NCBI RefSeq assembly: GCF_003609835.1
Contig: NZ_AP017898.1
Coordinates: 930,001-994,000 of the forward strand
Source of the DNA: Sphingopyxis sp. FD7
Lineage (GTDB): Bacteria > Pseudomonadota > Alphaproteobacteria > Sphingomonadales > Sphingomonadaceae
Length of the DNA stretch: 64,000 nt
Direction of reading: 5' to 3'
This document shows positions 49,532-63,256 of this stretch, in pieces. Each line of letters opens with the position of its first letter. Position 1 is the stretch's first letter. The notes under the pieces were generated by a model. The model made no database searches. It worked only from the letters and a program-made list of their open reading frames with translations, and was not told where the DNA came from. Position numbers and translations under genes: made by a program.

Positions 49532-49608
49532 GCACCCGTAGCTCAGCTGGATAGAGCATCAGACTACGAATCTGAGGGTCGGGCGTTCGAATCGCTCCGG
49601 GTGCGCCA
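49532..49608 (+). tRNA. tRNA-Arg (anticodon ACG)
   Basis: The 77-nt cloverleaf has acceptor stem GCACCCG/CGGGTGC with CCA encoded, D-arm AGCTCAGCTGGATAGAGC, anticodon stem-loop TCAGA-CTACGAA-TCTGA with ACG, and T-arm GGCGTTCGAATCGCT. It is the last clear core gene before the rearranged region. Confidence 0.97.
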
Positions 49609-50562: not shown

Positions 50563-52531
50563 AATGCTATGACCTAGTCCGCCGTAGCACACTGAACCAG
50601 TTAGTTGCAGCTGGACCGCGATTTCTGAAATGCTATGACCAAGCGCCAGCTGACCTGATCCCACCCCTCGTTGCAGCTGGACCGCGATTTCTGAAATGCT
50701 ATGACTAACATTACTGGTAACGCAATTAGAAATGTGTTGCAGCTGGACCGCGATTTCTGAAATGCTATGACTGCTCGCTCGCGTTTCCAGTCGATGAGAT
50801 CGTTGCAGCTGGACCGCGATTTCTGAAATGCTATGACACCTGCCACGCCAGCGGCGCTAGCTATTAAGTTGCAGCTGGACCGCGATTTCTGAAATGCTAT
50901 GACGCCATCGCAGTCAGGGCACCGTTCCGCCTGGTTGCAGCTGGACCGCGATTTCTGAAATGCTATGACCGAGCGGCGAGGAGGCAAGGCGGCGGGTCTG
51001 TTGCAGCTGGACCGCGATTTCTGAAATGCTATGACATTCGGTTCGGCTGGCTCGACGATTTCGACGTTGCAGCTGGACCGCGATTTCTGAAATGCTATGA
51101 CCTTAACGAACGCCGGATCATTCCGTTCGTTGTTGCAGCTGGACCGCGATTTCTGAAATGCTATGACTTGCGCCTGAATGTCCACAGGATCAGCGGCGTT
51201 GCAGCTGGACCGCGATTTCTGAAATGCTATGACCCAGCGTCGGGTCGGCCGATGCGATGAGCTGTTGCAGCTGGACCGCGATTTCTGAAATGCTATGACC
51301 CGCAAAAAATCTCATCGCGCCCAGTCTCGTTGCAGCTGGACCGCGATTTCTGAAATGCTATGACGACGTCTTGGGGTTTGTTGTCGCTGCCCTCGTTGCA
51401 GCTGGACCGCGATTTCTGAAATGCTATGACGCCGCGCAGATCGAGGCCGTGACCGAATGCGTTGCAGCTGGACCGCGATTTCTGAAATGCTATGACGCAA
51501 TCGACCGGCGGCATGTCGTGCGCCGTGTTGCAGCTGGACCGCGATTTCTGAAATGCTATGACTGTAGCAGCGTAGTGTAGAGGCCAACACGCGTTGCAGC
51601 TGGACCGCGATTTCTGAAATGCTATGACTCACGGCATTTTCGAAGCCGAGCGCAAGTTGTTGCAGCTGGACCGCGATTTCTGAAATGCTATGACCTATGT
51701 TTTCAACGTCAAAAGCGGCGGTAAGTTGCAGCTGGACCGCGATTTCTGAAATGCTATGACACAACGCTCAATGGTGGCGCGATTACTGGGTTGCAGCTGG
51801 ACCGCGATTTCTGAAATGCTATGACTGATCCACGCATCGCCGCGCGCCATGCGCCGTTGCAGCTGGACCGCGATTTCTGAAATGCTATGACCGCCGTAGT
51901 AGCCCCAGCACGAGCCGTCCTGTTGCAGCTGGACCGCGATTTCTGAAATGCTATGACGCCGCCATGATAATACTTGATGTCGGCAGCGTTGCAGCTGGAC
52001 CGCGATTTCTGAAATGCTATGACATAGGGGGTGGGTTACCGTGTGCAGCGGTCGTTGCAGCTGGACCGCGATTTCTGAAATGCTATGACGATCACCGACG
52101 TTGGACACAGACTCGATGAGTTGCAGCTGGACCGCGATTTCTGAAATGCTATGACGCCGACGCCATAGGTCGGCGGCAAGCGCAGTTGCAGCTGGACCGC
52201 GATTTCTGAAATGCTATGACTTTTTCAAGGTCAATCCTTTGGTTCGCATAGTTGCAGCTGGACCGCGATTTCTGAAATGCTATGACGGAATGCGCGGTGG
52301 CCTAATCCCCGGTCCGTTGCAGCTGGACCGCGATTTCTGAAATGCTATGACTCCTGCAGCTTCTCCGACGCCCGCTTATGGTTGCAGCTGGACCGCGATT
52401 TCTGAAATGCTATGACTGCGCTGGCAGAGGCTATCGGCCGGGCGCTGTTGCAGCTGGACCGCGATTTCTGAAATGCTATGACCCGTAATAATATACGGCA
52501 TGACAAAAATCAGTTGCAGCTGGACCGCGAT
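50563..52531 (+). CRISPR. CRISPR array, segment 1 (type II-C)
   Basis: There are 29 complete identical 36-bp repeats (first 50604-50639, last 52447-52482; each starts GTTGCAGCTGG and ends ATGCTATGAC). Spacers are 30 nt, with five of 29 nt (before 51329, 51790, 52185, 52316 and 52381). The left end is an 11-nt repeat tail (50563-50573), then a spacer. The right end is the first 19 nt of a repeat (52513-52531), cut by an IS. This segment has 30 spacers. The crRNA sense is the plus strand because the anti-repeat at 59463 is its complement and repeats start GTTG as in other II-C systems. Confidence 0.97.
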
Positions 52532-52596
52532 TGACGTGACCCCCTGATTTTCCTCCAACAGTGATTAGAGTCCGGTCTTGAAGGAAGGACGGACAG

Positions 52597-52863
52597 ATGA
52601 AGCGTTTGAGGTTTTCGGAAGAGCAGATCATCGGGGTGTTGAAGGAAGCGGAGGCGGGCGCGAAGACCGGCGAGCTGGCGCGGCGACACGGGGTGTCGGA
52701 AGCAACGATCTACAACTGGAAGGCCAAGTATGGCGGCCTTGAGGTGTCGGAGGCGAAGCGGCTACGCTCGCTCGAGGACGAGAACGCGAAGCTGAAGCGG
52801 TTGCTTGCGGACTCGATGCTGGACAATGCGGCGCTGAAGGATCTTCTCACAAAAAAATGGTGA
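52597..52863 (+). CDS. IS3-family transposase OrfA
   Basis: The 88-residue HTH protein ([47 protein letters not shown]) carries a C-terminal leucine-zipper-like helix ([32 protein letters not shown]). It binds the IS ends. Its end overlaps orfB at a run of A's (about 52849-52856), where a -1 frameshift would yield the OrfAB transposase. Confidence 0.93.
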
Positions 52864-53768
52864 CGCCCGCCGTTCAGCGGGAAGCGGTCGCCCATCTCCA
52901 GGCTTGCCATGGGATGAGCGAGCGGCGGGCGTGCCGTGTCACAGGCGCCGATCGGAAGAGCATGCGCTACCGGTCGCAGCGTGGCGACGATGCCGAGGTT
53001 CGGGAGAAGCTGCGCGAGTTGGCGCAGCAGCGTCGCCGGTTCGGTTATCGGCGCCTGCATATCCTGCTGCGCCGGGAGGGCGTGATGATCAACAGGAAGA
53101 AGACCCAGCGCCTGTATCGAGAGGAGGGGCTGATGGTCCGACGAAGACGCAACCGGCGCCGGGCGATCGGTGCGCGGGCGCCCGCACCGGTGCTCGCGCT
53201 GCCGAACCAGCGGTGGAGCCTCGACTTTGTGCATGATCAGATGGCGTCAGGTCGGCGGTTCCGGGTGCTCAACATCGTGGACGATGTCACGCGGGAGTGC
53301 CTGCGCGCGGTGCCCGACACGTCGATCTCCGGGCGCCGGGTCGTGCGCGAGCTCAGCGATCTGATCGAGGAGCGCGGCAGACCGGGGATGATCGTCAGCG
53401 ACAATGGGACCGAGCTGACATCGAACGCGGTGCTCGCATGGTGCGGTGAGGTCGGGGTCGAGTGGCATTATATCGCGCCGGGCAAGCCGATGCAGAACGG
53501 CTATGTCGAGAGCTTCAATGGCCGGATGCGCGATGAGCTTCTGAACGAGACGCTGTTCCTCGACCTCGATCATGCCCGCACAGTGATCGCGGCCTGGGCC
53601 GAAGATTACAACCAGGCGCGGCCACACTCGGCCCTTGGATATGAGACACCGGCGGCGTTCGCCGCCGAACTGCATAAGCAATGGCCTGTGCAGCTACGCC
53701 CTTCGGGCTCCGCTGCACAGGCCATTGCTTACACTGCGCTCATGCGCAACAAAGCTGCTGGGCTCTAA
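52857..53768 (+). CDS. IS3-family transposase OrfB (DDE)
   Basis: The 303-residue integrase-fold protein has DDE residues Asp123 (SLDFVHD), Asp182 (VSDNGTE) and Glu218 (YVESFNGR). It has the HTH_21 domain N-terminally. It is intact, so this IS may still be active. The last 30 codons lie over a perfect 19-nt inverted repeat (53676-53694/53712-53730) that may act as a terminator. Confidence 0.94.
53676..53730. repeat. Long hairpin at the 3' end of IS orfB
   Basis: Perfect 19-nt arms AAGCAATGGCCTGTGCAGC and the complement, with a 17-nt loop that itself can pair (CGCCC/GGGCTCCG). It is coding in orfB. Confidence 0.85.
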
Positions 53769-53801
53769 TCCCCGCTGGTGGAAACCAGGGGGTCACGTCA
53801 C

Positions 53802-54593
53802 TCCCGCCCAACAATCCATCGTCGAGATGGAGTTGCAGCTGGACCGCGATTTCTGAAATGCTATGACCGCGCGATCAACGAGGGCGTTCCGATCACCGTT
53901 GCAGCTGGACCGCGATTTCTGAAATGCTATGACCTTCCGGCGTGCCGTAGAAGACCTGCGCTTGTTGCAGCTGGACCGCGATTTCTGAAATGCTATGACA
54001 GCCGATGCCTTGAAAGAACAAGGCTTCACGTTGCAGCTGGACCGCGATTTCTGAAATGCTATGACGCCCCATAGCGTCGGATTGAGCGTGCCCTGGTTGC
54101 AGCTGGACCGCGATTTCTGAAATGCTATGACATGGCCAGCGATCTGTTCTGGATGAAAGATGTTGCAGCTGGACCGCGATTTCTGAAATGCTATGACAGC
54201 GCTCGATAGTGCCAGCGGGACGGCCCAGTTGCAGCTGGACCGCGATTTCTGAAATGCTATGACGTCATCAGGGCTATCCCAGGCGATAGCATCGTTGCAG
54301 CTGGACCGCGATTTCTGAAATGCTATGACGGAAGGACCATCCGGGGACGCGGGACTTCCGTTGCAGCTGGACCGCGATTTCTGAAATGCTATGACCAGGG
54401 CTTTCGCCATCGCTCCCGCCACGCCGTTGCAGCTGGACCGCGATTTCTGAAATGCTATGACCGCACTGCCCGTCGAGCAGGCCGAACTTGCGTTGCAGCT
54501 GGACCGCGATTTCTGAAATGCTATGACCAGTCGGATTGGCACTATCCCTAGTAATATGTTGCAGCTGGACCGCGATTTCTGAAATGCTATGAC
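53802..54593 (+). CRISPR. CRISPR array, segment 2 (cas2-proximal)
   Basis: There are 12 complete 36-bp repeats, identical to those of segment 1, starting at 53832, 53898, 53964, 54030, 54096, 54162, 54228, 54294, 54360, 54426, 54492 and 54558. The exact period is 66 bp. Counting the spacer at 53802-53831 next to the IS there are 12 spacers. The final repeat ends at 54593. The 72 bp to the cas2 stop contain no repeat and could be leader or trailer DNA. Confidence 0.97.
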
Positions 54594-54665
54594 GGATGGG
54601 CTCTTAACTGGTTGAACTGAAACCGGAAAAGATCCCATCTGTCACTGCAAAAATGCAGCGAATCA

Positions 54666-54995
54666 TCAAAACAGGGCGAGTTGATCGGGATTTTTTCGTT
54701 GCCGCTGGCGACGTTGGCTCGAGAACCGGATGATATTCTCGTACTGCTTGTCGGTAAAGTTGAGCACATGAATCTCTCCGCGTTCGGGCAGGTGAGCCTC
54801 GATTCGCCGCAGGTAGGTTTCATAATGTTCTTTGCCATTGCAAAACCGAGCATAGATTGAAAACTGGCTCATTTCAAAGCCTTCATCAAGCAGAAACTCC
54901 CGGAATTTCGTCGCTTCGCGTGCGTGTTCCTTGGTGTCCACCGGCAGGTCGAACATAACGAATATCCACATCAGCCGGTATCCGCTCAGGTTCAT
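54666..54995 (-). CDS. cas2: CRISPR-associated endoribonuclease Cas2
   Basis: The 109-residue protein has a ferredoxin-like fold; MNLSGYRLMWIFVMFDLPVDTKEHAREATKFREFLLDEGFEM has the conserved Asp16. It forms the Cas1-Cas2 integrase complex for spacer acquisition. ATG 54995 overlaps the cas1 stop (ATGA), indicating coupling. A longer frame to 55031 exists. The C-terminus is short and basic (RRQRQRKNPDQLALF). Confidence 0.95.
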   Translation of the reverse strand: MNLSGYRLMWIFVMFDLPVDTKEHAREATKFREFLLDEGFEMSQFSIYARFCNGKEHYETYLRRIEAHLPERGEIHVLNFTDKQYENIIRFSSQRRQRQRKNPDQLALF

Positions 54996-55924
54996 GCTTC
55001 GATCGCAACTGATTGCCCGATCGAGGCCCAATCGAGAGGATCGGGTGGGTCAAACAGGGCCAGTGCCGATCTGCGTTCTTCGAAGCTTCGGGCAAGCGAT
55101 TGCGCCAGTCGCTGGGCTGCCACGGACACGGGTGATACGACTCCGCCCAAGCGGAGATCATGGCCGATCAGACGCGCCAGCCGCTGTTTCGCTTGCGTGG
55201 TGACGGCGTCGACGCCTTCCTCGCTCATCCGCAGAACCAGCGCGTCAACAAGCGGTCGGAACGGCTCGACCAGATCGTCGGCCAATGCAAAGCCGTTGAG
55301 GCGACTATGGTGGTGCAGCCCGATCGCCGGGTGAAGCCCCGCGCCGATGATTGACCTAGCGACGCAGGATCGCACGACCGTGTAGCCATAGTTCAGAAGG
55401 GCATTCGGGCCATCGGCATTCTGATCCCGACGAAAATCGCTCCCGAACAGGGCGGGCCAGTATTTCCGCGCGGCCTGCGCCTCCAGATTATCCGGGTCGC
55501 CGGAACGAACGCGCCGTGCCATCAAGGCCAGTGCGTTGGCTTCATCCCTGCCTTGCGCCGCCAGCAACGAGGCTTGCAGCGAAATCTTGGAGACAATGAT
55601 TTTCTGCCAGAGCTGTTTGAAAAGGGGACGCGGCGCCTCCCATTGTGCCCGCATTCTGGCAGCCTGAGCGTGATGACCATCAATGGGTGACATGATCGCC
55701 ACCGGCAAATGGTTGGCCGCGCACAGCACCATGATTGCACCGCGTTCGGCAAGCGCGACGACCAGGCTGGTCGTCCAGGTCACGCCGTGGGCATGGACGA
55801 TGACCGCCTGAATATCGTCGAGCGCTACGCGCCCCTGTTCCTGCCGATCAAGGCTGACGACAAGAAATCCGCGATAAGCAGAGAGATGGAGGTCGTTTGT
55901 GGCAATATCGACAATGCGATCCAT
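54992..55924 (-). CDS. cas1: CRISPR-associated integrase Cas1 (type II)
   Basis: The 310-residue protein shows Cas1 active-site positions Glu148 (NLEAQAARKYW), His205 (LHHHSRLN) and Glu220 (ADDLVEPFRP). It integrates new spacers. ATG 55924 is preceded by AAAGG at 7-nt spacing; a GTG at 55954 would add ten residues. The gene starts 49 nt downstream of the cas9 stop. Absence of cas4 and csn2 and the small Cas9 place the locus in subtype II-C. Confidence 0.96.
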   Translation of the reverse strand: MDRIVDIATNDLHLSAYRGFLVVSLDRQEQGRVALDDIQAVIVHAHGVTWTTSLVVALAERGAIMVLCAANHLPVAIMSPIDGHHAQAARMRAQWEAPRPLFKQLWQKIIVSKISLQASLLAAQGRDEANALALMARRVRSGDPDNLEAQAARKYWPALFGSDFRRDQNADGPNALLNYGYTVVRSCVARSIIGAGLHPAIGLHHHSRLNGFALADDLVEPFRPLVDALVLRMSEEGVDAVTTQAKQRLARLIGHDLRLGGVVSPVSVAAQRLAQSLARSFEERRSALALFDPPDPLDWASIGQSVAIEA

Positions 55925-55972
55925 GGCCAGCCTTTCGGGAGAGCAGGCTGGCACATCATGGATAATGACGGG

Positions 55973-58900
55973 TTAACGCGGCCCGGGGTCGAAAATGCGG
56001 CCGAGTTCATCGACGCGAACCTGGCGGGCTTTCATGTTCTTGAGCGCCGATGCCCCCGGCCCATAGAATTTGAAGGGGTCATCCGGGTTTTTGTTGCGCT
56101 CGGTCATATTTCCCGCTTCGTTGTGCTCGATCAGGAAAATCTGGCCGTTTTGTCCGTATTTCTGTACCCGCATAATCTGGCGAGGCCCGCCATCACGCTC
56201 AATCGCGATCAGATCATTCTGCCTGAGGCTCAGCACTTTCTTCGCTGCCGGGTGAGGGCGCTGTTCGATAAAGCCCGGCTGGTGAAGATCGAATGTCGAG
56301 ATAACCTGATGGACCCATCGGCCGTCCGGCATCTGCCAGACATTATAGCGCGCATTGGAATCGCCCAGATAGCCCTTGTAGGGCTTGCCTGTTCGATCTC
56401 TGATCGGAATGAGCGTGAGTCCCTCCCGAACTCTCACCCGGCGAATGCCCCTGAAGTGCGGATGAGTGCGGGAAAAGTCGAGCAAGGCCTTCTCGAACTC
56501 CTTGCCCGCAACATCGCGCGTTGCCTGCCATAATGCGTCGCGCAGAGCGGTATCGGGAATGCGATCCGGATCGGCGATGTCCTTGGGCGTCAGGCTGGCG
56601 AGCGGAACGCGGTGGACAACGACCGGCAGGCCCGTATCGCTGATCAGGCCGGTGAAGCCATAAGCCGTGTCGTTGTGCAATTTGCCGGCCGTGATGTCGC
56701 GCCCCGGTTCGGGCTTGCCCCGGCGGCCGTGATCCGCCTTGTGACTCACGGTCGCGGCCAGAATCTTCTCACGCAGTTCGTCGCGGAAACGGCGATCGTT
56801 CGGATGCCGCGCCCACGGCATAGGCAAATCTTCAAACAGCCTGTCGAGATTCTGCTTTTCGGCGCGCGCCGCCGCCTTCGCAATCTCCGCGATCAGCGCC
56901 GGCGTCATGATGCCGACCACGGCGGCGTCGATCGCGTGATGACGATGATCGAGGCGGTTCTTGGGCGCATTGCTTTCCTTATTATCCACCCAATTATGAT
57001 CGGGCAGGATGGAGTTCAGATCCCACAGGCGGCGCAACATCGCGGTCATCCCGCCATGAACGGCGAACACATGCCGCTCGCCGCGTTCGGGATAGAGGCA
57101 GGCCAGATATTTCGCCGCGATACGGGTGAGATATTGGGTATCGACCAGTTGCCGGGGCAGGAAGCTGCCTTCCTCCGCCGCATAGCGGTCCCGCGCATCC
57201 GGGCCGAAGCGCCATTGCTTCGAGCGGTGAAGGTGCGCAACCTGCTCCTGGATGATGGACCATCGGTCGGGATCATGGCCCCAGCGCTCCCAGGGGGTTT
57301 GACTGCCCTTCTCGCGGTTGCACCACGTATGGACAAGCACCTTGTTGCCAATGCCGTCATCATAGCTTTGGGAATATGGAACGATGTGGTCGATCTCGAC
57401 ATCGTTGTTCCGGATATGCGCCTGGCCGATATTCTCCCCGCAATAGGGGCAGCGGCGATTGAGGACGTCCTTGGGGTTCAGTTCCGTCCACAACCGCAGG
57501 ATCAGTCGGTTGCGCCCGGTATCGCGGACGCCCATCGTGCCCAGCTTCGCGCCACGGTCGCGTGCGGCATCGGTGTTCTCCTTGAGTTGCCGATTATAGG
57601 CGACCTTCTCCTTTTCGTTGAGCTTCAGTTCGCGCGCCAGTTCGACGAAGATCTGGTCGGGCTTTCCGTGGACCCGGATGATCGCGCTCACCAGTCTGGC
57701 CAGCTGGTTCAGCCCGATATGGACGGTGGGATTGGTGATCTTGCCGAACCGGCGTTCATTCGCGTCGCCATATTCAGGCTTGCCCGGCGCGATCTCGCGC
57801 GAGAGGATTTCACCATAGTAAGGGAGTTGGTCGAACGCTTCCCCAGTCCGGAAATCGCTGTGATGAAATCCAGCCCGTTTCGCGGCTTCGGCGTAGGTGC
57901 AGACATCAGCCTTATATTCTTTGAGCAGCGCTTTTGTCGCCGTCAGTCCAAAGCGCCCATGCCCTTCGGGCAGTTTCGCGTTGGCGACAGCCAGCGCGGT
58001 TTCGTCGTCCAGCCCATATTCGCTTTTCAGCCAGGTCAGCAGGGTGTCGCTGTCCTCCTCTTCGAGCAGCCGTTCGATGATCGTCCATTGTTCTTCGGCG
58101 CTGAAATGAAACCAGCGCGGACCAAACAGTTTCTTGTGCGAAAGTTCGGCGCGCACCTCGTCACCATCCAGCGCCTTGCGGTTTTCGCCTTCCTTGTTGA
58201 ACCGTTCGCCGTCCTTGAGTTTCAGCGTCTTGCCCAGCGTGTCGAAAGAAACCGACTTCTTGTCCTGCAACTTCAGGATCAGGGCGTCGCGCTCATCGAG
58301 CGTCAACGGGCGCCCGGCTGCACCCGGTGCAACCACCCTGAGCTGGTTGACCTCCTCATACAGGCGGCGCTGCTGGAACAGCGGATGCGCCTTGGGCAGG
58401 CGCTTCTCGTCCGTCGGCACGCCGTTGATTCCTGCGAAGGTGCAAGGACCGACAATCTGTGGCTTCAGCGGTCGTTGATATTCGATCACACGGTAAATGC
58501 CGTTCCATGCCTGCGGCGTCAGCAGGTCTGGATACCAGGCCTTTTGCGCATCCCAGATAGCGCGGAACTCGTCCAGCACATGCCGACGGTCCGGATAGAA
58601 GTCATAAGCCTTGCTGTCGGCGCGCATCCTGACGCGCTTGCCCATCGTGCCATTCGATTCATGATCGCGCTTGACCAGAAACTCGCCCAGGGTTCGCGCA
58701 CCCAGTCGCCGCATGTCCTCGTCAAGCAGCCTGGTGGCCGTGGCGATCTTGCCATCCTCGCCGGCTTTCGACGTGCGCTCCGCCTTGCGGTTGGATTTGA
58801 AACCGCGCCGCTGGTTGAGATGGAACAGCGCGCGCCCGATCTGGTGAGGTTCCAGCTTCTCGTCGAGCGCGCGAACACGCAACGCATAGGGGTCTTGCGT

Positions 58901-59185
58901 CTCCAGCGCCCTGGCCAGTTCGGGATCGGCTGGCAGCAGTCCGTGCCGACGCAATTCCCGCAGCATGGCGGAACGCCGCCCGATATAGCGGTCCCGCCGC
59001 CGCCTTGCGCCGCGCGCCTCCCGCCGTTTGACCGCCAGCGGCGTGCCGGACCCGGAAACGGCGAGCTTCGACGGCTCGCGCCCGTCCGAAAAGATGCGCA
59101 CGCCGATGTCGCGGATGCTGTCGCCGTCATAGAGGCACCAGCCGATGCTGTTGGTGCCGATGTCGAGGCCGAGACGCGTTGTCAT
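55973..59185 (-). CDS. cas9: CRISPR-associated endonuclease Cas9, subtype II-C
   Basis: The 1070-residue nuclease begins with RuvC-I (RLGLDIGTNSIGWCLY, Asp8), then the Arg-rich bridge helix (53-72, KRREARGARRRRDRYIGRRS) and REC lobe. RuvC-II is IFVELARE (Glu515). The HNH domain is about 570-640, with zinc-type cysteines Cys579/Cys582 and Cys622, His600 in EIDHIVPYS and Asn614. RuvC-III is DHRHHAIDAAVV (His750, Asp753). The C-terminal part is the wedge/PAM-interacting region. All key residues are present. The start has GGAGGGA upstream. Length is typical of II-C. Confidence 0.98.
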   Translation of the reverse strand: MTTRLGLDIGTNSIGWCLYDGDSIRDIGVRIFSDGREPSKLAVSGSGTPLAVKRREARGARRRRDRYIGRRSAMLRELRRHGLLPADPELARALETQDPYALRVRALDEKLEPHQIGRALFHLNQRRGFKSNRKAERTSKAGEDGKIATATRLLDEDMRRLGARTLGEFLVKRDHESNGTMGKRVRMRADSKAYDFYPDRRHVLDEFRAIWDAQKAWYPDLLTPQAWNGIYRVIEYQRPLKPQIVGPCTFAGINGVPTDEKRLPKAHPLFQQRRLYEEVNQLRVVAPGAAGRPLTLDERDALILKLQDKKSVSFDTLGKTLKLKDGERFNKEGENRKALDGDEVRAELSHKKLFGPRWFHFSAEEQWTIIERLLEEEDSDTLLTWLKSEYGLDDETALAVANAKLPEGHGRFGLTATKALLKEYKADVCTYAEAAKRAGFHHSDFRTGEAFDQLPYYGEILSREIAPGKPEYGDANERRFGKITNPTVHIGLNQLARLVSAIIRVHGKPDQIFVELARELKLNEKEKVAYNRQLKENTDAARDRGAKLGTMGVRDTGRNRLILRLWTELNPKDVLNRRCPYCGENIGQAHIRNNDVEIDHIVPYSQSYDDGIGNKVLVHTWCNREKGSQTPWERWGHDPDRWSIIQEQVAHLHRSKQWRFGPDARDRYAAEEGSFLPRQLVDTQYLTRIAAKYLACLYPERGERHVFAVHGGMTAMLRRLWDLNSILPDHNWVDNKESNAPKNRLDHRHHAIDAAVVGIMTPALIAEIAKAAARAEKQNLDRLFEDLPMPWARHPNDRRFRDELREKILAATVSHKADHGRRGKPEPGRDITAGKLHNDTAYGFTGLISDTGLPVVVHRVPLASLTPKDIADPDRIPDTALRDALWQATRDVAGKEFEKALLDFSRTHPHFRGIRRVRVREGLTLIPIRDRTGKPYKGYLGDSNARYNVWQMPDGRWVHQVISTFDLHQPGFIEQRPHPAAKKVLSLRQNDLIAIERDGGPRQIMRVQKYGQNGQIFLIEHNEAGNMTERNKNPDDPFKFYGPGASALKNMKARQVRVDELGRIFDPGPR

Positions 59186-59384
59186 ATACGATTCCCTCCC
59201 TCAGCTTCCATCCGCAAGGGAAGGGGCGAGCGTCGGCTCGACCCTTCCAGGCTCCACCAGCTGCAGCCCGAATCGGACACGACAAGGGCTTTTTACCACA
59301 GGTCAATCGAAGTTAAAACTCCCTACTCCATTTAAATCACTTCCGATCACGGGCCAGGCGTGGCATGGTGGCGTTGGCGACTGA
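59186..59384 (-). promoter_or_regulatory. Intergenic promoter region of cas9
   Basis: Reading towards cas9 there is a TTGACC (59306-59301), a possible -35 box, and an SD GGAGGGA near 59195. No convincing -10 is visible. The sequence TAAATGGAGTAG on the minus strand (59334-59323) lies 17 bp upstream of the -35-like box and is duplicated, as the guide-like sequence, at 59385-59396. Confidence 0.5.
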
Positions 59385-59432
59385 TAAATGGAGTAGGCTG
59401 CAATCGGACCGGCGATTTCTGAACCTCTTGAC
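59385..59432 (+). ncRNA. Guide-like segment plus degenerate CRISPR repeat (tracr-L/scaRNA-like)
   Basis: Bases 59397-59432 form a 36-nt degenerate repeat (GCTGCAATCGGACCGGCGAT.. to CTCTTGAC) aligned to the array repeat with one inserted G, one deletion and several changes. It lies on the plus strand, like the tracrRNA 30 nt downstream. The 12 nt just before it (TAAATGGAGTAG, 59385-59396) equal a stretch of the minus strand in the cas9 upstream region. The degenerate repeat can pair with the anti-repeat over about 23 bp with a single bulged G. Function is inferred. Confidence 0.7.
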
Positions 59433-59462
59433 ATCAGCCGCGATTCCTGATGGACTGAATCC

Positions 59463-59540
59463 TTCAGAAATCGCGGTCCGGTTGTTAACAAGCAACTTGA
59501 TTGCACCAAATAAGGTGGGGGCTACGGCCCCCATTTCTTA
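59463..59540 (+). ncRNA. tracrRNA
   Basis: The anti-repeat starts TTCAGAAATCGCGGTCC (59463-59479) and is complementary to the array repeat (12 perfect pairs at GCGATTTCTGAA plus more after it). It is followed by GTTG-N8-CAAC, then CACC-N6-GGTG (59504-59517), and the terminator hairpin GGGGGC-TACG-GCCCCC (59517-59532) with ATTTCTT. A perfect TTGACA (59428-59433) would place a start near 59463. It is divergent from cas9. Confidence 0.85.
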
Positions 59541-59777
59541 CCGTTGCCCAAGAAGCGGGATTCGTAGTTGTGACCGAATCCGACCGTGTGGAAATGTTCG
59601 GTTGCCCGCTAATGCCAGACTCATCTGACAAGTACCGAGCAAATCATTCGTCGTAAATGGTTGCGGGCAACCCGGATGTCGTGGCGGTTGTTTACTGGCA
59701 AGGGTACCGTGTCCTGAAGACCGCCTTGCGGGAAGCTGCTGCGGGGTGCTGATAGCCGCTCTTTGCGAGGAGCGGTG

Positions 59778-60042: not shown

Positions 60043-60924
60043 TTAGCCCGTCATGCGTTGCTCGGCCTGTTCGGGGGTGAGATACCCGAGGGCCGAGTGC
60101 ATGCGGTTCCGATTATAATAGCCTTCGATATATCCGAACAGAGCCTGCCGGGCTTCGAGATGCGTTGCCCAGCGGCATTGATGGACCAGTTCGACCTTCA
60201 GCGTATGGAAGAAGCTCTCCATCGGCGCGTTGTCGTAACAGTTCCCAGTGCGGCTCATCGACGCGGTCGCGCCGATCGCAGTGAGTTGATCGACATAAGC
60301 CCCGGCGGCATATTGCGATCCGCGATCGGAGTGATGCACGAGTCCGCGTAGCGGTCGCTGCCGTTGGGCGGCCATCATCAACGCAGCGAGCGTCAGTTCG
60401 GTGCGCATGTGATCCCGCATCGCCCAGCCCACGATCTTGCGAGTCGCCAGATCGAGCACGGCGGCCAGATACAGCCAGCCTTCGCCGGTCGGGATATAGC
60501 TGATATCGGCCAGCCACACGCGGTTCGGCGCCGTGGCTTCGAAGCGCTGCGCGAGCAGGTTCGGCGCGATCGGCAGGTAATGGCGGCTGTCGGTCGTCGA
60601 GGGCCGAAAGCGGCGACCGGCAAGCGCACGGATGCCGTGGCGGCGCATCAGCCGCTCGACACGACCGCGGCTGCAGCCGCGCCCTTCCGCGCGCAGCGCG
60701 GCATGCATCCGGGGACTGCCGTATCGCCCGGAATGCCGCGCCTGGATCCGACGGATATCGCCGAGCAACACGGTGTTCGCCGTCGTGCGCATACTCGGCG
60801 GCCGATCGCGCCAATCGTAATAGCCGCTGCGCGACACACCGAGCATGCGGCACATGACGCTGACCGGCCAGGTGCCAGCATGGGCGCGGATGAACTGGAA
60901 CTTCACCGTGGCATCTCCGCGCAA
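60043..60924 (-). CDS. IS3-family transposase OrfB (DDE)
   Basis: The 293-residue protein has DDE residues Asp140 (WLADISYIPT), Asp200 (HHSDRGSQY) and Glu236 (DNAPMESFF), with HTH_21 N-terminally (RRIQARHSGRYGSPRMHAAL). It is likely made as an OrfAB fusion by -1 frameshifting at A6G (60935-60941, minus strand). Intact. Confidence 0.94.
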   Translation of the reverse strand: MRGDATVKFQFIRAHAGTWPVSVMCRMLGVSRSGYYDWRDRPPSMRTTANTVLLGDIRRIQARHSGRYGSPRMHAALRAEGRGCSRGRVERLMRRHGIRALAGRRFRPSTTDSRHYLPIAPNLLAQRFEATAPNRVWLADISYIPTGEGWLYLAAVLDLATRKIVGWAMRDHMRTELTLAALMMAAQRQRPLRGLVHHSDRGSQYAAGAYVDQLTAIGATASMSRTGNCYDNAPMESFFHTLKVELVHQCRWATHLEARQALFGYIEGYYNRNRMHSALGYLTPEQAEQRMTG

Positions 60925-61217
60925 ATGCCGACCGCTTTTTTCAGAATGTCGCGCTCCATGCGCGTGCGATCGAGTTCGCGGCGCAGCCTGGCAATCTCCG
61001 ACGCCTGATCCGCCGGCGACGCCATCGGCGATGATAGCGGCTTCGCCGCAGGCACTGTCCCCTTGATCTCCAGTGCCCGCTGCCAGCGCCTCAACATCGT
61101 CGGCATGATCCCCAGCTCACGCGCAACGTCGGTCTGCATCCGACCGCTCGTCTCCCACAGCGTCACAGCCTCGCGCTTGAACTCGTCTGTGAAATATCGC
61201 TTCCCAACCTTCGCCAT
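60903..61217 (-). CDS. IS3-family transposase OrfA
   Basis: The 104-residue protein has the HTH YFTDEFKREAVTLWETSGRMQTDVARELGIMPTMLRRWQRAL and a C-terminal coiled coil (EIARLRRELDRTRMERDILKKAVG). Overlaps orfB by 22 nt. The AAAAAAG motif in ILKKA is a standard slippery sequence for IS3 elements. Confidence 0.94.
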   Translation of the reverse strand: MAKVGKRYFTDEFKREAVTLWETSGRMQTDVARELGIMPTMLRRWQRALEIKGTVPAAKPLSSPMASPADQASEIARLRRELDRTRMERDILKKAVGICAEMPR

Positions 61218-61277
61218 CTTACACCTCCTCGCTCCAATGAGCCGTTCATCGGTGTCCGCGCAACCGGGGGAAGATCA

Positions 61278-61791
61278 CTGGGAGCAGGTCGACTTGTCCC
61301 GCCGCATCGTCACGATCGGGCACGGCGACACCAAGAATGGCGAAGCACTGGGCGTACCGCTCAACGATCTCGCCATCGCGGTGCTCGAGCGGAGGATGGC
61401 GATCCAGCACGAATATGTGTTCACCTTCAAGGGCCGCGCGCTCGGCCAGGTGAATACCAAGACGTGGCGTGCGGCGCTCGTGCGGGCAGGGATCACCGAC
61501 TTTCGTTGGCACGATCTTCGCCATACATGGGCAAGCTGGCTTCGGCAGAATGACGTGCCCACCTGGGTGCTTCAGGAGCTGGGCGGGTGGAAGTCCGAAT
61601 CGATGGTGCGGCGCTATGCCCATATGTCGGTGAAGCATCTCCAGCCCTATGCCGACCAGCTGACGTTTTCGGTCACACCTCGGACCGGCGGAAATCCGCC
61701 AGCCGGGGGTTCGGCCGAAGGTCACAAAAATGGTCACAGTTCGGAGCCGCCAAGGCTCAAGCTCGTGGCCGGGACTGACCTAAGTTACTGA
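61278..61791 (+). pseudogene. Tyrosine recombinase (phage-type integrase), 5' truncated by the IS
   Basis: The C-terminal catalytic part remains, about 170 codons: WEQVDLSRRIVTIGHGDTKNGEALGVPLNDLA, then HDLRHTWASWL (H-x-x-R), GGWKSESMVRRYAHMS (W/H and Tyr nucleophile). The N-terminal SAM-like and arm domains and the first catalytic Arg are lost. The C-terminal tail (TPRTGGNPPAGGSAEGHKNGHSSEPPRL) is low complexity. The gene ends 17 nt before the tRNA-Lys remnant, the usual site of such integrases. Confidence 0.85.
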
Positions 61792-61984: not shown

Positions 61985-63256
61985 ATGGCGAACAAAGTAG
62001 GTTTGACGGACGCGAAGATCGCAGGGCTCAAGGCGCCGGCGGCTGGTCAGGTTGAGCTGGCCGATGGTATCGTCCCCGGCCTGAGGCTCCGCATGGGTGC
62101 CAGTGGTATCAAGACGTACATTCTGCGCAAGCGGGTTCAGGGCAAGTGGTTGAATGTGACCATCGGACGCCATGGTCCGAGTTTTACCCTCGCTCATGCG
62201 CGTAAGAAGGCGCGAGATCTGCTGGTCGATGTCGAGCAGGGCAAGAGCATTGCCAGGAAGCCGGGTGCTAAGAGGAAAGGGGCAAAGGGCGTCGGTACGG
62301 TCGCCGAGCTCTACGAGACGTATCTGTCCCAGCAGATCGAGGGCAAAAAGCGCAGCGCAAGGGAGTTCGATCGGGTCTTCCGAAAGTACATTGAGCCCGA
62401 GCTGGGAGACCGCCTCGCGGACTCCATTACCCGAGGTGACGTGAGCCGCTTTGTTGAGAAGATCGCATTCGAGCGGGGCAAGGAAACCCTGACGATGGCG
62501 CGGATCGTCTATCGCCATCTTTCGACCTTCTACACTTGGGCACTCACCAGACTCGAGCATATGCCCGCCAATCCCTGCCGGGACGCGTGGCGTCCGAAAC
62601 GCAATGAACCTCGTGATCGCGTACTCAGCGACCGAGAACTCGCGGCGCTATGGCAATCTGCGGTCGAGGATGGCTATCCATTCGGTCACCTTGTGCAGAT
62701 GCTTGTCCTTACGGCTCAACGCCGGGGTGAAGTGCTCGATGCAGCTTGCGACGAGTTCGATTTCAAGGCGAAGGTTTGGACCGTCCCAGGCGACCGAGCG
62801 AAAAATGGCAAAGCGAATGTGGTGCCGCTATCCGCGCAGGCCCTTGCAGTAGTCACAGAGGTCTTCGTGGCCGCAGGGATCGATCCTGACGATGCTCACA
62901 AGCAATCCCAGATTCTGTTGGCATCGAAGGTCACCAGCACGAACAGCGTTAGCGGCCTCTCGAAAGCATGGAAGCGGATCAGAGCAAGCGTGGACGAGAA
63001 GCTCGGCTACGAAGCCGGTCACTTCACAATGCATGACATTCGGCGGACGGTGGCAACTGGCCTCCAGCGTCTCGGCATACCTCTGGTGGTTTCTGAAGCG
63101 GTCCTCAATCACCAGTCAGGATCAGCTATGGCCGGTGTGGCGGGGGTTTATCACCGACACCAGTATACCAACGAGAAGCGCGAGGCGTTGGCGTTGTGGG
63201 GCAAGGAGGTAATGCAGATTGTAGCCAAGTACCCCGTCGAGGCCAAAAGCGGCTAA
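61985..63256 (+). CDS. P4-type tyrosine integrase (DUF4102 N-terminus)
   Basis: The 423-residue protein begins MANKVGLTDAKIAGLKAPAAGQVELADGIVPGLRLRMGASGIKTYILRKR, the DUF4102 arm-binding domain. The catalytic set is Arg246/247 (TAQRRGE), His350-x-x-Arg353 (HDIRRT), His376 (LNHQSG) and Tyr389 (GVYHRHQY). It integrates islands at tRNA genes; a tRNA-Lys remnant lies 105 nt upstream. Intact. GC content is lower than in the core genes, consistent with transfer. Confidence 0.95.
   Translation: MANKVGLTDAKIAGLKAPAAGQVELADGIVPGLRLRMGASGIKTYILRKRVQGKWLNVTIGRHGPSFTLAHARKKARDLLVDVEQGKSIARKPGAKRKGAKGVGTVAELYETYLSQQIEGKKRSAREFDRVFRKYIEPELGDRLADSITRGDVSRFVEKIAFERGKETLTMARIVYRHLSTFYTWALTRLEHMPANPCRDAWRPKRNEPRDRVLSDRELAALWQSAVEDGYPFGHLVQMLVLTAQRRGEVLDAACDEFDFKAKVWTVPGDRAKNGKANVVPLSAQALAVVTEVFVAAGIDPDDAHKQSQILLASKVTSTNSVSGLSKAWKRIRASVDEKLGYEAGHFTMHDIRRTVATGLQRLGIPLVVSEAVLNHQSGSAMAGVAGVYHRHQYTNEKREALALWGKEVMQIVAKYPVEAKSG

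Follow-up and report, generated by a model that had tools for sequence, protein, structure and literature searches.

A putative natural single-guide RNA directed at the cas9 promoter in a small-Cas9 CRISPR-Cas locus of Sphingopyxis and its relatives

Introduction

Does a CRISPR-Cas locus with a small Cas9 carry its own guide RNA against cas9? The question is raised by a 64,000-nt stretch of DNA from Sphingopyxis sp. FD7 (the whole stretch analysed is referred to here as the window), in which a reading of the sequence alone had noticed a degenerate CRISPR repeat upstream of the tracrRNA, preceded by 12 nt that occur again beside cas9, and had proposed a natural single-guide RNA.

An RNA of this kind, tracr-L, has been described for the II-A system of Streptococcus pyogenes, where a long tracrRNA is transcribed from an upstream promoter beside the short form (Workman et al. 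2021; PMC11417352, PMC8616872, PMC8730458, PMC12216829) and functions as a single guide that represses the cas promoter beside a PAM without cutting (PMC8616872, PMC11417352, PMC8730458, PMC12216829). The matching length is given as 11 nt (PMC8616872) or 9 bp (PMC8730458), and a 2021 review states that tracr-L has not been found in subtypes other than II-A (PMC8616872). The scaRNA of Francisella novicida is described as a separate RNA targeting lipoprotein genes and not cas9 (PMC8730458, PMC8616872), and a II-C scaRNA of Neisseria meningitidis as acting post-transcriptionally on efeO mRNA (PMC13431127). For type II systems, scaRNAs were predicted by Guzina et al. (2018), whose main text gave no hit for the terms II-C, Sphingo or autoregul-. 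In the openly licensed literature searched, we found no description of a natural single guide that acts on cas9 in II-C.

Results

The window harbors cas9 (55973-59185, minus strand; 1070 aa, TIGR01865, E 8.5e-169) with recognizable HNH and RuvC-III domains (Pfam HNH_4 and RuvC_III), followed by a type II cas1 (54992-55954, minus strand; TIGR03639, E 3.2e-75) and cas2 (54666-55031, minus strand, as limited by the open reading frame list and with a provisional start; TIGR01573, E 8.4e-19 over 54666-54974). A CRISPR array lies at 50600-54603 on the plus strand, with the perfect 16-nt core of repeat GTTGCAGCTGGACCGCGATTTCTGAAATGCTATGAC in 41 copies; an IS3-type element at about 52597-53768 breaks it into blocks of 29 and 12 (a separate run counted 42, as 30 and 12). 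The locus consists of cas9, cas1, cas2 and array, with a Cas9 of 1070 aa and a type II Cas1, a composition that does not place it in II-A; from gene content and Cas9 size we take it to be II-C. The IS3-type element inside the array carries a transposase pair (52597-53768), and a further IS3-type transposase is found at 60043-60924. The whole CRISPR-Cas locus is flanked by a tRNA-Arg gene (49532-49608) and a phage-type tyrosine integrase (61985-63256), with a second integrase-family reading frame at 61063-61791, and the system is probably located on an integrative island.

The tracrRNA is divergent from cas9, and the guide and the degenerate repeat sit between the two on the plus strand. The 12-nt guide TAAATGGAGTAG occupies 59385-59396 and directly precedes the degenerate repeat, the putative crRNA-like arm, at 59397-59432, which aligns locally to the array repeat with a score of 17 and reaches a prefix score of 16 compared with a maximum of 10 among 15 shuffles. 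With up to three substitutions, the repeat core recurs elsewhere in the window at only two sites, within the degenerate repeat (59408-59423, plus strand) and in the anti-repeat (59463-59478, minus strand). The coordinates bear out that the degenerate repeat ends 30 nt before the tracrRNA anti-repeat (59463-59490) on the same strand; nexus, tail and a terminator hairpin with a T-rich end follow at 59491-59539, also on the plus strand. A consensus scan places a candidate internal promoter for a short tracrRNA at 59428-59456 on the plus strand (TTGACA, 17 nt, TGGACT) and yielded no strong promoter for a long form upstream of the guide. An Rfam match at 59435-59472 was set aside, being under its gathering score.

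Folding of 59385-59543 as a single RNA predicts a structure of -68.9 kcal/mol (z = -6.7), in which the degenerate repeat would pair with the anti-repeat in a stem with one bulged G, giving a single-guide-like structure as the sequence-only reading had anticipated. That reading had also held that the degenerate repeat fits the anti-repeat better than the array repeat does at two positions, and had seen selection in this. A59403 and C59405 do replace wobble pairs, but T59404 adds one, so the gains are offset and the pairing fit gives no ground for a claim of selection. Folds predicted for 11 loci, including the window, contain the cis repeat:anti-repeat pairing in eight, and the minimum-energy folds of the other three (L103, L105 and L125; L numbers denote loci) lack it.

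The predicted target of the guide, or protospacer, lies on the minus strand at 59323-59334, an exact 12-nt match that keeps register with the repeat boundary. It is followed by a PAM-side octamer, GGAGTTTT (59315-59322, minus strand), with G at position 2 and T at position 6, and, 8 bp past the octamer, by the expected TTGACC box (59301-59306, minus strand), which the consensus scan ranks as a candidate cas9 -35 box with a weak candidate -10 at 59279-59284. Allowing up to one mismatch, TAAATGGAGTAG occurs at exactly two sites in 64 kb, at 59385-59396 (plus strand) and 59323-59334 (minus strand), as had been reported, compared with a mean of 0.02 occurrences in shuffled sequence. The exact match in fact extends to 13 nt, the first G of the repeat being shared with the target copy, and the two 13-nt copies are inverted, perfectly complementary and 50 nt apart. 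When anchored at the repeat boundary, the match had no equal among 200 dinucleotide-shuffled versions of the upstream region or among 74 upstream regions of matched length from other loci.

We collected Cas9 relatives from 27 of 397 genomes of the family (21 of 396 with another Cas9 as query), from 34 of 385 genomes of the class and from 28 of 295 of the phylum; genus-level searches gave 3/6, 20/94, 1/24, 1/5, 1/14, 1/5 and 1/80 genomes, and five named loci and 46 plasmid records were added, the source sets overlapping. Longer stretches supplied the arrays and hence each locus with its own repeat; for 6 of 76 loci (L103, L110, L113, L119, L125 and L139) the repeat was taken from a related locus. 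Out of 94 stretches, 76 were scored and 18 were dropped as lacking the cas9 5' end or a readable repeat or having too short an upstream region. The loci were taken as Cas9 relatives irrespective of subtype, and the most distant Cas9 proteins are less than 30% identical to that of the window. The interval from cas9 to the anti-repeat was searched automatically for the 5' portion of the repeat in the 67 loci with an anti-repeat, of which 66 were scored; L119 and L242 yielded no anti-repeat, and the plasmid loci L101 and L102 were covered in only one scan.

Nine loci, namely L204, L110, L103, L233, L112, L127, the window, L118 and L201, carry a clear repeat copy with a score of at least 13 and above all 15 shuffles. 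Six weaker copies were added by eye, four of them found automatically with a low score (L125, L107, L123 and L126) and two placed by eye (L105 and L139), giving a total of 15 of 76 loci with the element; these weak copies were accepted partly on the strength of their guide match, and in L125 and L123 the copy scores no higher than its shuffles. Five loci with repeat scores of 7-11, just over their shuffles (L117, L120, L116, L131 and L122), were left uncounted because their top sites are mostly tracrRNA-promoter-like and their guides match poorly, although that of L117 stands at 1 of 62 in the cross-locus comparison. With the repeat in the correct direction, none of L184, L187, L189, L208, L234 and L236 has a comparable matching repeat copy, the copy in L184 scoring 8 against a shuffled maximum of 6 with a guide match of 3. 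In the window and in 13 other element loci, the unit precedes the anti-repeat and shares its strand.

Several loci have layouts of their own. L103, L118 and L233 show two partial repeats in tandem before the anti-repeat, resembling a decayed mini-array; in L103 and L233 the automatic anchor fell on the downstream second partial repeat and the guide was taken from the first copy, which a 14-nt search selected unaided in L103. The linker between repeat copy and anti-repeat of L112 bears a strong hairpin. In L127/L067 (G846) the tracrRNA is reversed, and a repeat-like unit with a weakly self-matching guide lies beside cas9 in a scaRNA-like layout. A second tracrRNA nexus-like copy is found upstream of cas9 in L183 (G437; about 180 and 550 nt), possibly a duplicated tracrRNA.

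Guide matches were scored over 20 nt, counted from the repeat boundary. Each of the 15 element loci has its own, different guide, so that of the conservation expected in related loci the 12-mer itself is not kept, but the relation between guide and local cas9 upstream region is, clearly so in 13 of 15. In a length-matched control, the locus's own cas9 upstream region was the best outright in these 13 (0 of 74 other regions as good; 0 of 73 for L201), with the guide of L127 equaled or beaten by 2 of 74 regions and that of L126 (L066), which has a repeat copy and a guide with no match, by 18 of 75. Among 12 loci compared with dinucleotide shuffles of their own region, 0 of 200 shuffles reached the score for the window, L103, L105, L110, L112, L118 and L125, followed by L139 (1), L123 (3), L107 (7), L127 (8) and L126 (107). 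All nine clear loci match, L103 and L233 after re-anchoring on the first tandem copy and L127 weakly. For comparison, 3 of 52 loci without the element (L117, L004 and L177) also come to a match level of 0 or 1 of 62, a level that is lenient since the cross-locus regions behind it are often shorter than the own region. A null of random guides from the same region was discarded, being contaminated by terminator hairpins and by the guide-target pair itself.

Over the whole of each stretch (11-64 kb, both strands), the best in-register match is the cas9-upstream site in 11 of 15 loci; this site is tied first in L105 and L139, second in L107 and absent in L126. Left unanchored, the longest exact match stops at the boundary of the repeat, or 1 nt beyond it, in 9 of 15 (one tie) and elsewhere in six. 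The three different guides of L105, L107 and L118 all fail to match their targets at the third seed position, a feature that might adjust binding or keep Cas9 from cutting.

The closest relative of the window's Cas9 is that of Sphingobium wenxiniae (L103), at 91% identity. Repeat copy, linker, anti-repeat, nexus and terminator of the two loci align closely, whereas the cas9-ward region does not; guide and target of L103 are unrelated to those of the window, yet they match each other within the locus, as they do in the window. The L103 match is 18 nt long, its two PAM-proximal bases mismatch and its octamer, TACAGATT, departs from the pattern described below; given the two mismatches, this element may be inactive or recently copied.

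Target and guide are inverted relative to each other in 10 of the 14 matching loci and direct in four (L118, L123, L139 and L233). In the 12 matching loci of the window's Cas9 clade, position 6 of the PAM-side octamer is T in 11 and position 2 is G in 10; at random sites of the same regions (background without L233), any base at any of the eight columns reaches 10 of 11 with P = 0.00025. The neighboring -35 box (ATTGAC) may be partly responsible for the T at position 6 in several loci. L201 and L204 share a different octamer, GNNAACNT, and their Cas9 proteins are 48% identical to each other and 34-40% identical to the other 13. Spacer searches for protospacers that could report the PAM gave no convincing hit with the first array block of the window and the L112 array against plasmids, with the L112 array against phages and 298 sphingomonad genomes, or with 912 spacers (some loci counted twice) against all collected loci; the matches obtained were arrays, repeats or GC-rich coding sequence.

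Promoters were called by consensus scan alone in 12 loci, with L233, L201 and L204 outside the scan. In the window, L103, L112 and L125 the target adjoins the -35 box that ranks first towards cas9, and in L107, L110 and L118 one of lower rank; it overlaps -35/-10 in L123 and lies just downstream of the -10 in L105 and L139, and the scan gave no clear relation between target and promoter in L127. Between repeat copy and anti-repeat, a TTGAC box is present in 10 of 11 loci (L118 being the exception and L127, with its flipped tracrRNA, left out), and the -10-like hexamers after these linker boxes are weak in several loci.

The distribution of the element was mapped on an approximate FastTree phylogeny of 91 Cas9 proteins, which has long branches and on which unscored loci count as having no element. 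It takes 13 changes, against an average of 14.1 in shuffles, 114 of 500 of which need no more than 13; the element is therefore scattered, with many gains and/or losses. In viral contigs, a peptide-pattern scan detected no relative of the window's Cas9, and a search of a phage collection at blastn sensitivity found no match to the element. The spacer work brought up two fragments that resemble non-spacer parts of the L112 array and are separated by about 8 kb in another genome (G295:C1, near 1059732 and 1068013), a genome that gave no Cas9 match in a search with E up to 1e-50. In L173, the plasmid pBSY17_1 of Sphingobium sp. RAC03, a related array neighbors an IS110 transposase and a cas9 whose annotation spans only 2307 bases.

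Discussion

We consider it very probable that the window encodes a natural single-guide RNA like tracr-L, here in II-C, that directs Cas9 to repress cas9 without cutting. Guide, degenerate repeat and tracrRNA would be transcribed together as one long RNA, in which degenerate repeat and anti-repeat would pair in cis. Once loaded with this RNA, Cas9 would bind the match beside the cas9 -35 box, with the octamer presumably serving as PAM, and would block transcription of cas9 and probably of cas1 and cas2 too. The 12-nt match would be too short for cutting, as reported for S. pyogenes tracr-L with its 11 nt; because it is short, we expect binding without cleavage, and the outcome would be a negative feedback on the Cas9 level. 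The sequence logic of the original interpretation is thus supported, and the support is confined to that logic, since transcript, PAM and repression are what we infer from it.

Alternatively, guide and degenerate repeat could form a separate RNA, like a scaRNA or crRNA, that pairs in trans with the short tracrRNA and guides Cas9 to the cas9 promoter. The promoter-like site for a short tracrRNA in the linker of 10 of 11 scanned loci makes two RNAs possible, the strong hairpin in the L112 linker would suit them, and with the reversed tracrRNA of L127/L067 only a trans arrangement is possible in that locus. We nevertheless regard such action in trans as unlikely for the window, given that the unit precedes the anti-repeat on the same strand there and in 13 other element loci and that the cis stem is predicted in 8 of 11 folds; the regulatory outcome would in any case be identical.

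The matching copies might also be a plain inverted repeat, that is, an operator for a protein or a long-range RNA hairpin of 59322-59334 with 59385-59397, as the sequence-only reading itself had allowed. Their inverted, perfectly complementary arrangement in the window, with the same sense in 10 of 14 matching loci, agrees with such a repeat. As a general account it fails, because the direct copies in four of the 14 cannot be explained by a palindromic operator or a hairpin; in 9 of 15 loci the repeat boundary is where the longest exact match stops, and with a different guide in every locus one protein family is unlikely to read them all. We rate this explanation as quite improbable. We give hardly any credence to a remnant of a former CRISPR array, a decayed terminal spacer-repeat unit that matches the promoter by accident: the diverged repeat beside the tracrRNA and the tandem partial repeats of L103, L118 and L233 do look like relics, but in 13 of 15 loci the match is not likely to have come about by chance, and array remnants would not match one local promoter after another in a constant register and with a shared octamer. 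A decayed array is a likely origin of the element, as distinct from its function.

The proposed single-guide RNA resembles tracr-L in several respects: a 5' extension of the tracrRNA is predicted to pair in cis with the anti-repeat (in 8 of 11 folds, that of the window among them), and the match is short (12 nt in the window) and placed at a cas promoter by consensus scan. As to the two promoters of tracr-L, 10 of 11 loci have a candidate internal promoter for a short form, and the long-form promoter of the window is weak or unclear in that scan. Unlike tracr-L, it occurs with II-C gene content and a small Cas9, mostly in alphaproteobacteria; its crRNA-like arm is a recognizable degenerate repeat; and its targets lie in either orientation, each locus having its own guide and target, with the loci scattered on the Cas9 tree. 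In contrast to the F. novicida scaRNA, the unit of the window lies on the same strand as the tracrRNA, directly before the anti-repeat, and has its target at cas9; the L127/L067 layout is nearer to that scaRNA. The N. meningitidis scaRNA is likewise a CRISPR-associated small RNA in II-C, but, unlike the RNA proposed here, is no DNA guide to cas9. Shmakov et al. are said to have described in 2023 CreR RNAs and mini-arrays, stand-alone degenerate repeats with partial guides matching cas promoters; these regulatory RNAs reportedly occur mostly in type I and V-A systems and without fusion to a tracrRNA.

A wider scenario, possible but doubtful in our view, is that natural single-guide RNAs are a recurrent II-C invention, in which a copy of the repeat first comes to lie ahead of the tracrRNA and its guide is then exchanged again and again, perhaps for a new copy of the promoter itself. 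Guide and cas9 promoter would thus turn over together, even between loci with Cas9 proteins still 91% identical, against a nearly constant repeat copy and tracrRNA. The 18-nt S. wenxiniae match looks like a recent promoter copy, and the two Cas9 clades with the element differ in their target-side motif (NGNNNT and GNNAAC).

The control of small II-C Cas9 systems is, in our judgement, little known. The present findings suggest that self-regulation of cas genes by a natural guide arose repeatedly outside the group in which it is known. Loci of II-C in which guide and promoter change together are ready-made tests of such regulation, and the set of elements predicts PAMs for otherwise uncharacterized small Cas9 proteins and supplies natural single-guide scaffolds. 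With a tRNA-Arg gene on one side of the locus and a phage-type integrase on the other, the element may also help the system to settle in new hosts.
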